This document shows, one piece after another, positions 3,462 to 17,108 of a stretch of DNA of 21,285 nt. Where the stretch lies: positions 1-21,285 of IMG/VR virus record IMGVR_UViG_3300030106_004471, one strand, 5' to 3'. A model generated the notes under the pieces. The model did not search any database. It saw only the letters and a list, made by a program, of their open reading frames with translations, and was not told the origin of the DNA. Numbering within the stretch: position 1 is the stretch's first letter; every line of letters starts with the position of its first letter. Source of the stretch: a virus. A program made the position numbers and the translations under genes.

Positions 3462-3483
3462 CGTAGGCTGTGTACAGCCTACG
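3462..3483. repeat. Perfect 9-bp stem-loop upstream of terL
   Basis: CGTAGGCTG and its exact reverse complement flank a TGTA loop. There is no T-run on either side, so it is not a standard terminator. It lies in the terL leader on the minus strand. The right arm runs into ACGGTCA (3481-3487), the reverse complement of the TGACCGT unit repeated at 4537-4610. Confidence 0.7.
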
Positions 3484-3492
3484 GTCATACAC

Positions 3493-3506: not shown

Positions 3507-3556
3507 CCTTGGTTCTAAAACTTATTTTTGAAATTCTATAAGTTACCCTAGTTGCG

Positions 3557-3569
3557 AATGATTATCATT
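3557..3569. promoter_or_regulatory. AATGAT-n-ATCATT palindrome
   Basis: Perfect 6-bp arms around one base. The surrounding sequence resembles the bacterial Fur box pattern. It lies 20 bases upstream of the 18-bp operator-like site at 3589. It may be a regulator site, but AT-rich palindromes this short also arise by chance. Confidence 0.3.
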
Positions 3570-3588
3570 ATTACCCAGGGTTTATTGC

Positions 3589-3669
3589 TGTGACATTTTT
3601 ATCACAGCATAAAAAAATAATTTATTATCTTATATTATTTACTTGTTATATTATATTTTATGTTATAAG
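3589..3669 (+). promoter_or_regulatory. Operator-like palindrome plus promoter of the gp88-family gene
   Basis: The operator-like box TGTGACATTTTTATCACA (3589-3606) lies inside a longer inverted repeat with TGCTGTGA/TCACAGCA arms. TTGTTA (3643-3648) and TATAAG (3664-3669) are 15 bases apart and are the likely -35 and -10. Box, -35, -10 and ATG sit at offsets 0, 54, 75 and 118. Exactly the same offsets occur upstream of the gene at 4734, and the leader AAAGAGAGAGTAAAAAA is shared as well. This is strong evidence for common control by one dimeric DNA-binding protein. The protein is not identified. Confidence 0.65.
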
Positions 3670-3706
3670 ATAGTATCATATTTTAATTAAAGAGAGAGTA
3701 AAAAAA

Positions 3707-4462
3707 ATGAAATTATTAGATACAAATCAAAATAATACTAAAATTAAAAAATCAATTGAATATATTTCTTTGTGGAAAAACTTAAATAAAAATAATACAG
3801 ACTTTGCAAGTTTATCTTTAATGCCTGATTATAAAATTTGTGGTGGGTCTAAATCTGCTGGATGCATGGAATTATGTTTAAAAGATGCTGGGTTTGCTAA
3901 AATTTTTAATTCTGTAAATATAGCACGTCAAAATAAAACAAACTTTTTATTAAATGATAAAATTGGTTTTATTAATCAATTAAAAAAAGAATTATCTAAT
4001 TATAATAAAAGATGTATTAAGAATAATAAAAAAGGGTTTGTTAGACTAAATACAATTAGTGATTATCCATTTTATAAAACTGGCGTAATGACTGAAAACC
4101 CTGATTTAATTTTTATTGATTATACAAAAATTGCTAAAAGATTATTTGAAGAACTACCTGAAAATTATTTTTTAATATTTTCTTTTTCAGGACGTGAACA
4201 ATATACAAATCAGGTAAGACTAGCATTAAAAACTGATTATCCAATTTCAGTAGTTTTTTATGATGAACTACCAAAAACATTTTTAGGACGTGACGTTATT
4301 GACGGCAATAAATCAGATTTAAATAATGTTTTAGAATTCAATAAAATTATTGGTTTATCTTTTAAAGAAATTTCAGATGAAAATTTTAATGAGTTTAAAG
4401 ATAATGGGTTTATTGTTTACAATCATCAATTAGATTTTTATAATAAAAAATTCTTAAATTAA
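3707..4462 (+). CDS. gp88-family protein (mycobacteriophage gene product 88 domain)
   Basis: A 251-residue protein matching, by my recognition, the phage 'gene product 88' domain family, whose biochemical role is unknown. Conserved-looking blocks in order are GGSKSAGCMELCLKDAGFA (about 46-64), an ARQNKTNFLL stretch, FVRLNTISDYPF (about 111), IFIDYTKIAKRLF (about 134), NYFLIFSFSGREQ (about 151), ISVVFYDELPKTFLGRDVI (about 179-197) and a final DGNKSDLNN. Two Cys of the first block could bind metal. The gene is much more AT-rich than the packaging genes (A/T-only third positions, many AAA and AAT codons). It has its own promoter and a strong terminator, as expected for an accessory cassette. Its ATG follows an AAAGAGAGAG leader. 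Confidence 0.78.
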   Translation: MKLLDTNQNNTKIKKSIEYISLWKNLNKNNTDFASLSLMPDYKICGGSKSAGCMELCLKDAGFAKIFNSVNIARQNKTNFLLNDKIGFINQLKKELSNYNKRCIKNNKKGFVRLNTISDYPFYKTGVMTENPDLIFIDYTKIAKRLFEELPENYFLIFSFSGREQYTNQVRLALKTDYPISVVFYDELPKTFLGRDVIDGNKSDLNNVLEFNKIIGLSFKEISDENFNEFKDNGFIVYNHQLDFYNKKFLN

Positions 4463-4483
4463 TTTATTATCTTTAATAAATAT

Positions 4484-4515
4484 AAAATCTCAGGCTATAG
4501 CCTGAGATTTTTTTT
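4484..4515 (+). terminator. Rho-independent terminator after the gp88-family gene
   Basis: A perfect palindrome AAAATCTCAGGC (4484-4495), TATA loop, then GCCTGAGATTTT, running into a T-rich tract. It starts 22 bases after the stop codon. The A-rich left flank also makes it usable from the minus strand, so it could act in both directions. Confidence 0.88.
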
Positions 4516-4536
4516 ATCTAAAAAAATTTTGAAAAA

Positions 4537-4610
4537 TGACCGTATAAAAAAGTATGACCGTAGGTCATTCCATGACCGTTGTCAGCTTGACCGTAGGTTA
4601 AGATGACCGT
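4537..4610 (+). repeat. Five-copy TGACCGT direct repeat (iteron-like array)
   Basis: Exact TGACCGT copies start at 4537, 4555, 4573, 4588 and 4604, so spacings are 18, 18, 15 and 16 bases. The second copy forms the inverted repeat ATGACCGTAGGTCAT and the fourth continues as TGACCGTAGGTTA. The array sits between a terminator and the operator-like palindrome of the next gene, with no reading frame in it. One further copy is inverted at 3481-3487, on the other side of the gp88-family gene. It could be a replication iteron set or a multimeric regulator site. Confidence 0.75.
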
Positions 4611-4615
4611 TTTTA

Positions 4616-4696
4616 TGTGACATAAATGTCACACCCAGGAAATAAAATTAAAAATAATTAAATTAATAGTTGTTATTGTATATAAGATAATATAAT
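4616..4696 (+). promoter_or_regulatory. Operator-like palindrome plus promoter of the 75-aa gene
   Basis: The perfect palindrome TGTGACATAAATGTCACA (4616-4633) shares its left half with the site at 3589. TTGTTA (4670-4675) and TATAAT (4691-4696) are spaced 15 bases apart. All offsets to the ATG (0, 54, 75, 118) are identical to those before the gp88-family gene, although the sequence between is not conserved. This implies conserved spacing rather than simple recent duplication. Confidence 0.65.
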
Positions 4697-4733
4697 ATAT
4701 TCTTATAACGTTAACAAAAGAGAGAGTAAAAAA

Positions 4734-4961
4734 ATGAGTAAATATGATAAGGACTATATTCATAATAAAAAAAATGGTGGCACTATTTATTGTTATGGCA
4801 ATATAGAAGAAGATTCAAATTTTTATATTGTCTGTGATAATGAAAATTATGATGGTGTCGCCTGTGATGTTGATGCTATAAAATTAAATACTTGGAAAAA
4901 AGTTTGCGAATATTTAATTAAAAATTATAGACATGACATAGAAGAAATTTCTACTTGTTAA
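4734..4961 (+). CDS. Small unknown protein co-regulated with the gp88-family gene
   Basis: A 75-residue acidic protein with five Cys and several Tyr, not recognised. A short, probably beta-rich middle (GGTIYCYGNIEEDSNFYIVC) precedes a likely C-terminal helix. The start ATG follows an AAAGAGAGAG leader identical to that of the gp88-family gene. Its promoter and operator have the same geometry too, so the two are probably expressed together and may act together. High AT content and AAA/AAT codon use match the gp88-family gene. A stem-loop follows 8 bases after the stop codon. Confidence 0.72.
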   Translation: MSKYDKDYIHNKKNGGTIYCYGNIEEDSNFYIVCDNENYDGVACDVDAIKLNTWKKVCEYLIKNYRHDIEEISTC

Positions 4962-4968
4962 TTTAACA

Positions 4969-4989
4969 GGGGTAGGTTTTTCCTACCCC
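4969..4989 (+). terminator. Stem-loop, terminator or attenuator
   Basis: GGGGTAGG pairs perfectly with CCTACCCC around a TTTTT loop, followed by AATTTTTG. The T-run after it is short, so termination may be partial. It lies between the 75-residue gene and the next gene, just ahead of that gene's ribosome binding site (GAAAGGA). Confidence 0.6.
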
Positions 4990-5372: not shown

Positions 5373-5445
5373 CCTGCGTTCGCAGAACGCAGGATTCCAG
5401 GTCGCAAGACCTGGAATCAGGTCGCAAGGTCGCAAGACCCCCCTG
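5373..5445. other. Tandem hairpin cluster with GCAA (GNRA) tetraloops
   Basis: Three stem-loops are packed end to end between convergent genes. CCTGCGTT/AACGCAGG surrounds a 5-base loop (5373-5393). ATTCCAGGTC/GACCTGGAAT is a perfect 10-bp stem on a GCAA loop (5394-5417). GGTC/GACC on another GCAA loop (5428-5439) sits inside an outer CAGG/CCTG pair (5418-5445). There is no T-run, so it is not a simple terminator. It could be a structured RNA, an RNA-stabilising element or a bidirectional transcription block. Confidence 0.65.
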
Positions 5446-5462: not shown

Positions 5463-5867
5463 CTACTCTATCGGTGTGACATTTTTGCAACACTGTTGTA
5501 AATATGCAACAACATCTTTTATTGATCCTTGGACTAAATGTTCTATGTCCTCGATCCTTGATCCTTGGATCTCCAACGATTTTCCACCCTCAAATAAAAA
5601 TAGATCTCTCTCCTTGGGTCTCGATGCAAGAAAAAAACTAACACCATTACATTGATTATATTTGATATGCCAAGCTATCTGTGACTTTTGTATAGTAATT
5701 CTATTATTTTTTATTATTTTTAATTCGATGAAGAATACATTTCCATTCATGCAAATAAATGTGTCAGGTATTCCCTCTCCAACTCTATTTTCTATTCTTT
5801 GATAGAACGTCTTCTTTGGTAGATTTTGTTTTAATATTGCTGATAATAACTTCTCTGTTTTTGGCAT
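5463..5867 (-). CDS. PD-(D/E)XK-like nuclease next to the terminase small subunit-like gene
   Basis: A protein of about 134 residues with the core of a VRR-NUC or Holliday-junction-resolvase-like nuclease. The signature is GIPD (Asp near residue 35), a strand NVFFIELK carrying the E-x-K pair (about 48-50), and a downstream KSQIAWH helix with the usual Gln. An upstream Glu in RIENR could complete the site. The start is uncertain: two adjacent ATGs at 5870 and 5867 follow AAGAGG, and the second has better spacing. Its first 83 to 86 bases overlap the small subunit-like gene upstream in another frame, an unusually long overlap. Such nucleases may resolve branched DNA before packaging, which fits the neighbourhood; that role is inferred. 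Confidence 0.75.
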   Translation of the reverse strand: MPKTEKLLSAILKQNLPKKTFYQRIENRVGEGIPDTFICMNGNVFFIELKIIKNNRITIQKSQIAWHIKYNQCNGVSFFLASRPKERDLFLFEGGKSLEIQGSRIEDIEHLVQGSIKDVVAYLQQCCKNVTPIE

Positions 5868-16931: not shown

Positions 16932-16964
16932 CCACTAACGTAATGGATTTAAGAGGAGTGTATG

Positions 16965-17108
16965 ATGGATCCTAACAAATGGAAATCGGTAGCAGTGTCT
17001 ATCGAGGTTTACGAAATGTTAAAACAGTTGGCTGACAAAAACGAAAGAAGTGTCAGTAGACAGTTAGCACATTTGGTAAAACAAGTTGCACAAAAAGAAG
17101 CAGCTTGA
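16965..17108 (+). CDS. Ribbon-helix-helix (Arc/CopG-like) regulator, 47 aa
   Basis: Forty-seven codons from the ATG at 16965; an ATG directly before it, at 16962, is only 3 bases from AGGAG, too close. The N-terminal strand WKSVAVSIEV (6-15), helix YEMLKQLADKN and second helix RSVSRQLAHLVKQVAQK match the ribbon-helix-helix fold, where paired strands read the DNA major groove. Such small proteins are phage repressors or activators that bind short operators as dimers or tetramers. It has its own promoter candidate just upstream. It is a candidate ligand for one of the repeat arrays in this window, but that link is inference. Confidence 0.78.
   Translation: MDPNKWKSVAVSIEVYEMLKQLADKNERSVSRQLAHLVKQVAQKEAA

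Follow-up and report, generated by a model that had tools for sequence, protein, structure and literature searches.

The window analysed in the current study, a marine phage sequence of 21,285 bases that represents the complete record IMGVR_UViG_3300030106_004471, harbors two promoters with a common 18-bp operator at an invariant distance from the -35 element. The recurrence of this site at the same distance in unrelated phages and its near absence from bacteria suggest, on comparative sequence grounds, a widespread virus-specific gene activator. The explanation that we favor, with somewhat more confidence than doubt, is that a dimer bound to the distal dyad activates transcription from a class I position, and that the factor is distinct from canonical CRP and probably virus-encoded. 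A more far-reaching proposal, which we advance tentatively and would not yet bet on, is that a virus-specific activator from a family new to science reads TGTKRCAW-N2-WTGYMACA from this position and switches on exchangeable accessory genes. The same reserve applies to the proposed range of users: phages of several unrelated lineages, for the most part marine and including podovirus-like relatives of pelagiphages as well as T4-like phages, whose gp88, ArdC and cobS/cobT-type genes would share a common promoter socket.

Genomic setting of the accessory units

The window is presumably a fragment of a larger genome, because its nearest relatives with names have 57–61 kb; its TerL is ~60% identical to that of the pelagiphage HTVC027P. 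Two accessory units are located between terL and the small-terminase/VRR-NUC genes, and a comparison across 80 terL relatives showed that the interval beside terL is hypervariable. Both units are AT-rich (22–26% GC versus ~40% on the terL side), both run opposite to terL and to the TerS/VRR-NUC genes, and each has its own promoter and its own intrinsic terminator on the plus strand (4484–4511 in unit 1, 4969–4989 in unit 2). They are best explained as exchangeable accessory transcription units.

Unit 1 encodes a gp88-family protein of 251 aa (PF17338; 3707–4462, plus strand) with the invariant cysteines Cys45, Cys53 and Cys57. Its predicted structure (pLDDT 85) had no PDB match with E ≤0.001, and the radical-SAM protein TYW1 was among the weak TIM-barrel-like matches; that GP88 might be an iron-sulfur enzyme is a guess. 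The gene of unit 2 (4734–4961, plus strand) encodes 75 aa without a match in Pfam or PHROGs, and homologues are present in two contigs with the same type of operator (L155, 52%; L115, 41%).

Several short elements accompany the units. Five TGACCGT repeats that are kept in relatives stand immediately left of operator 2 (4536–4611); in the extended form (A)TGACCGT(AGG), these five tandem copies are joined by one inverted copy near terL (3478–3488), and such repeats are also found in freshwater relatives bearing other operators. G+C-rich short repeats (CAGGTCGCAAGACC) occupy positions 5390–5439 of the otherwise AT-rich interval. An element AGTNACCC at about 3540–3550 is conserved in all terL relatives on the terL side of every operator class and may belong to the promoter that drives terL leftward.

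Anatomy of the twin promoters

The two 18-bp dyads announced in the original prediction are readily found, and operator 1 (TGTGACATTTTTATCACA, 3589–3606) and operator 2 (TGTGACATAAATGTCACA, 4616–4633) can be read directly from the sequence. The former is identical in related phages, and the latter is a perfect dyad except for its central bases. The predicted geometry is exact on the plus strand of both units: the -35 element TTGTTA lies at +54 (3643–3648, where it is invariant in unit 1 of the relatives, and 4670–4675), which corresponds to 45.5 bp from the operator centre, and the ATG follows at +118 (3707 and 4734). The leader with the ribosome-binding region AAAGAGAGAGTAAAAAA (3689–3705 and 4717–4733, plus strand) recurs as an exact 17-base match and is the sole such pair, compared with a shuffle mean of 0.07 even if two mismatches are allowed.

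The -10 element had been placed at +75 and is indeed readable there, but the assignment is ambiguous, since a register at +77 fits as well. In promoter 1 (3664–3671, plus strand) the alternatives are TATAAG at +75 (3664) and TAAGAT at +77 (3666), and in promoter 2 (4691–4698, plus strand) TATAAT at +75 (4691) and TAATAT at +77 (4693). The +75 register implies a 15-bp spacer and provides four to six matches to TATAAT, and the +77 register has a 17-bp spacer and yields TANNAT in 11/11 compared promoters. From these elements we infer transcription starts near 3678 and 4705; with the 17-bp spacer, the operator centre is positioned at -80.5 from the predicted start.

A relaxed motif TGTKRCAWNNWTGYMACA, which was drawn up after the sites had been seen, matches the window at four sites with at most one mismatch versus 0.01 expected. 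Two variant operator-like sites, TGTGACATTTTTGCAACA at 5475 and TGTTGTAAATATGCAACA at 5494, stand 19 bp apart at the 3' end of the VRR-NUC-like gene (5475–5511). A comparable pair is also present in L009, L015 and L032 and a single site in L023 and L026, and a variant box is retained in the VRR-NUC gene of relatives with another operator class (class C, see below); these sites may reflect coding constraint.

The sequence between operator and -35 had been described as different in the two units. This is correct within the window, where 17/35 positions are identical compared with 13.9 by chance (p 0.16), but it does not extend to the relatives: the unit-1 gap of L010 matches the window's unit-2 gap at 25/35 positions (p 0.0004). 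Given that, in relatives, the gap of unit 1 is similar to that of unit 2, the two promoter modules are probably paralogous on this sequence evidence, and the equal spacing, if judged from the window by itself, may simply have been inherited. Independent support for a selected spacing comes from unrelated phages.

Gene exchange under conserved operators in near relatives

Four operator classes were distinguished at this locus, namely T (the window-type dyad), C (ACCAGCTGG repeats), A (TTAACATGTTAA) and D (a dyad around ATAGCTATCA). A scan for operator plus leader retrieved L008–L016 and one unrelated match, L017. The original prediction had proposed to look for the operator at the same offset in related phages, and there it recurs: L008–L016 retain the operator, the leader and the 54-bp distance to TTGTTA, and their ATG lies at +117 to +120. 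The genes downstream are gp88 of type A, gp88 of type B or a gene of 97–108 aa that replaces the 75-aa gene. When the promoters of the relatives are compared in pairs, they agree on average at 100% of positions in the left arm of the operator, 83% in its right arm, 97% in the -35 element and 68% in the gap. Conversely, gp88 sits under ACCAGCTGG repeats in L004 (89% identity) and under TTAACATGTTAA in L005–L007 (80% identity). Since relatives keep operator, spacing and leader while swapping genes, and others keep gp88 under different operators, the box is part of a promoter module and not tied to the gene. A fixed link between gene and box is thus contradicted by these four gp88 homologues, but the promoter module itself held its box and its spacing. 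The conservation of operator, -35, spacing and leader during gene exchange, together with the return of the identical operator-promoter distance in unrelated phages, upholds the proposal of a selected co-regulation of the two units, which would be exerted by a dimeric factor.

The class D dyad is present in L009, L034 and L040, and L009 combines class D at unit 1 with class T at unit 2. L034 and L036 carry TGTGACATTTTTGCAACA at the unit-2 operator position, so that TGTTGCAA is apparently tolerated as a half-site. To the right of terL, the operator class (T, C, A or D) is swapped among the relatives L021–L095 even where TerL is 99–100% identical. The cassette and the operator class are all that distinguishes some close relatives, and TerS is almost unchanged between T- and C-class relatives. 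For the class A and C operators at the same locus, no significant phasing to promoters was detected among their too few independent promoters.

Helical phasing in unrelated phages

The pattern TGTGACATWWWTRTCACA matched at least 120 stretches in viral contigs; several inner letters are fixed in this pattern, so that it cannot show their conservation beyond the window's clade. The T dyads are mostly intergenic: among the matches listed, 14/115 distinct sites (12%) fall into ORFs of at least 80 aa, versus 76% of positions drawn at random from these contigs. A control pattern with a comparable composition returned 46 stretches in all, and 25 of its 31 distinct sites were in ORFs.

Sigma70-like promoters downstream of the dyads were scored regardless of spacing, and near-identical gaps were removed before counting. 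Among the matches listed, the distance from operator centre to -35 in 38 non-redundant promoters clusters at 44.5–46.5 bp (17 promoters), 54.5–56.5 bp (8) and 34.5–36.5 bp (3), which amounts to a helical phasing with a period of 11 (R 0.73, Rayleigh p 1.7e-9), although shared ancestry still inflates these counts and the contigs are fragments. The 45.5 bp of the window is the global mode of this distribution (clusters at 45.5, 56 and 35 bp), and 20/233 operators lie at 44.5–46.5 bp versus 0.064% of random centres, both again among the matches listed. Relative to the predicted start, the dyad centres cluster near -70, -80.5 and -91. Of the sites linked to a terminase, about 20 lack a strong promoter within range.

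One example of the recurrent architecture is provided by L201 and L373, the latter being part of a 155-kb record. Both have tandem dyads followed by TTTACA or TGTACA, 17 bp and TATAAT, with the -35 element at +54/+55 from the nearer dyad, and the promoters precede a small membrane-protein-like gene and gp88; their gp88 proteins are merely 33–35% identical to that of the window. Further first genes under T operators are cobS-like, cobT-like, DUF6267 and ArdC genes. The ArdC-type antirestriction gene is located under the T operator of L132 (2293–2310), and the class A operators of L070, L076 and L077 precede genes resembling it. In the unrelated contig L177 (3900–4221), a gene for an RHH protein is situated directly 3' of a T operator. 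We found no paper on such a motif in phages in the literature.

Virus specificity and candidate regulators

The consensus dyad TGTGACATWWATGTCACA was detected in 86 viral stretches versus 17 in 257 Gb of cellular genomes. These 17 are scattered across unrelated taxa at about chance level, and at ≤1 mismatch the dyad occurs once each in four of 147 SAR11 genomes. The near absence from cellular genomes therefore speaks against a host regulon of the consensus form, degenerate sites apart. It also weighs against the alternative in which a host transcription factor, with a specificity conserved among hosts, recognizes the dyad, and phages retain near-perfect copies of it to tie their accessory genes to the host state. 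Such a factor would explain why one site and one geometry are used by unrelated phages with different hosts and few genes in common, and it accords with the close relatives that differ only in cassette and operator class as well as with the SAR11-type host Fur box adjoining operator 1. Given the chance-level counts in cellular genomes and SAR11, we nevertheless judge it unlikely.

In contigs that had been selected for a spacer of 8, this spacer was found at 172 sites and any other at 0–3; in sets that were unselected or only partly selected for it, it was found at 7/10 and 6/13 sites. CRP-type N6 sites (TGTGA-N6-TCACA) are at background. The proteins of the T-bearing phages offer few candidates for the regulator: a single HTH_3 domain exceeded the cut-off, in G045, and no gene common to all T-bearing phages emerged from their available parts.

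The original prediction had suggested the RHH protein at 16965 (16962–17108) as a regulator, a role that is not supported by the comparison. Its family is present in 10/28 T-bearing records, which are fragmentary contigs, and in HTVC027P and HTVC023P, both without a T box at ≤1 mismatch; most of the T4-like phages that bear the box, one of 155 kb among them, did not yield it. Its recognition strand KWKSVAVSI is, moreover, identical in a class C phage in which these promoters lack the box. By these sequence criteria the RHH protein is unlikely to be the regulator, a verdict that is no stronger because class C relatives keep the variant T box in the VRR-NUC gene. TerS is nearly identical in class C relatives and is left as a weak rival candidate. 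A lysis/lysogeny-like switch, also considered in the original prediction, finds no support in the 21-kb fragment: neither an integrase nor a phage repressor was seen among its ORFs and the families searched, and the spacing fits a distal site, not operators overlapping divergent promoters.

Proposed mechanism and comparison with known systems

According to the model that we favor, a distal 18-bp dyad with the half-site TGTGACAT, centred ~80.5 bp before the predicted start, precedes a sigma70-like promoter, and a dimeric factor at this dyad would help RNA polymerase from a class I position. The promoter anatomy, its conservation during gene exchange, the phasing and the virus specificity of the consensus dyad are computed results; the binding of a protein dimer, the activating sign of control, the viral origin of the factor and the start sites are inferred from them. 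The same face of the DNA would be used throughout, as the distances step by ~11 bp like those of CRP class I promoters, and one factor would co-control different accessory genes in many phages.

The class I sites of CRP are centred at -61.5, -71.5, -82.5 and -92.5. The T dyad likewise has TGTGA/TCACA ends, it lies distal to the -35 element in steps of ~11 bp, and its helical phase is that of a class I site (period 11; 45.5 bp twice in the window). However, it does not match TGTGA-N6-TCACA and is not a canonical CRP site, because its spacer is 8 and not 6; in addition, the half-site variant TGTTGCAA is accepted, the dyad is virus-specific, and no CRP-type HTH exceeded the cut-off in T-bearing phages. 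The activators Ogr of P2 and Delta of P4 bind TGT-N12-ACA dyads, and Ogr sites are centred near -55. The T dyad fits this pattern upstream of a sigma70 promoter, and a phage activator would act on the host polymerase in a similar manner. In contrast, the window's dyad is centred at -80.5 with clusters near -70, -80.5 and -91, and among 28 records, which include many fragments, no Ogr_Delta protein (PF04606) exceeded the cut-off.

With phage morons the window's units share their own promoter and terminator, a deviating composition, an orientation against the neighbours and the exchange among relatives. Here, however, several cassettes stand under one operator class with a fixed promoter geometry, even across unrelated phages. 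HTVC027P and HTVC023P, whose TerL is 55–60% identical, also bear accessory genes between terS and terL, including a gp88 homologue in HTVC023P, yet neither genome contains a T operator at ≤1 mismatch, and no Fur box was present in the stretches read.

The phased distances also bear on three further explanations. The dyad could bind a repressor that acts at a distance, by looping or polymerase contact, with twin sites cooperating in silencing. Two in-phase sites in one region and the tandem sites of L201 and L373 would suit such a repressor, and looping likewise requires helical phasing. We consider it rather improbable, since many contigs have a single site, and since fixed distances of ~35, 45.5 and 56 bp to the -35 element resemble those of activators, for which fixed spacing is typical, more than those of looping repressors. 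The dyad could also serve packaging or replication as a target of the small terminase (a pac or cos region), its adjacency to promoters being incidental because the cassettes lie near the terminase. Such an element would account for the many sites near terS, VRR-NUC or terL homologues, often 370–1200 bp past terS without a strong promoter; it is very unlikely in view of the helical phasing, the dyads at cobS-/cobT-like and other genes away from the terminase, and the constancy of TerS across the T and C classes. Finally, a mere recent duplication of one promoter, with a dyad devoid of selected function, is hardly credible in spite of the gap homology between units in some relatives, because the operator arms are intact while the flanks diverge and the same geometry in unrelated phages contradicts it. 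The probabilities attached to these readings are not a strict partition, because the host factor and the repressor partly overlap with the activator model. Counting against the activator are the failure to find a regulator among the families searched in T-bearing phages, the ~20 terminase-linked sites without a strong promoter nearby, the coding location of the sites at 5475 and 5494, and the lack of significant phasing in classes A and C.

Possible iron control and biological significance

Between terL and operator 1, the window contains a predicted Fur box (3554–3572) that the original prediction had overlooked, a 19-mer GCGAATGATTATCATTATT with three mismatches to GATAATGATNATCATTATC, a match for which 0.03 are expected by chance. 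It is a 19-bp dyad of the GATAATGATNATCATTATC type as in the presumed SAR11 host, where a box like GCGAATGATTATCATTATT stands directly upstream of a gene for a periplasmic iron-binding protein. The Fur box is kept in 18 of 23 relatives of classes T, C and D and in 0/35 of class A. Infection by HTVC027P leads to higher host iron-transporter transcripts (PMC12753301). The proximity of a SAR11-type Fur box makes a host iron control of the phage locus directly testable.

If the activator model is true, the operator would provide a sequence handle for predicting which accessory genes of uncultured marine phages are co-regulated, and the putative DNA-binding protein would be a concrete target for understanding how exchanged cassettes become part of the infection programme.
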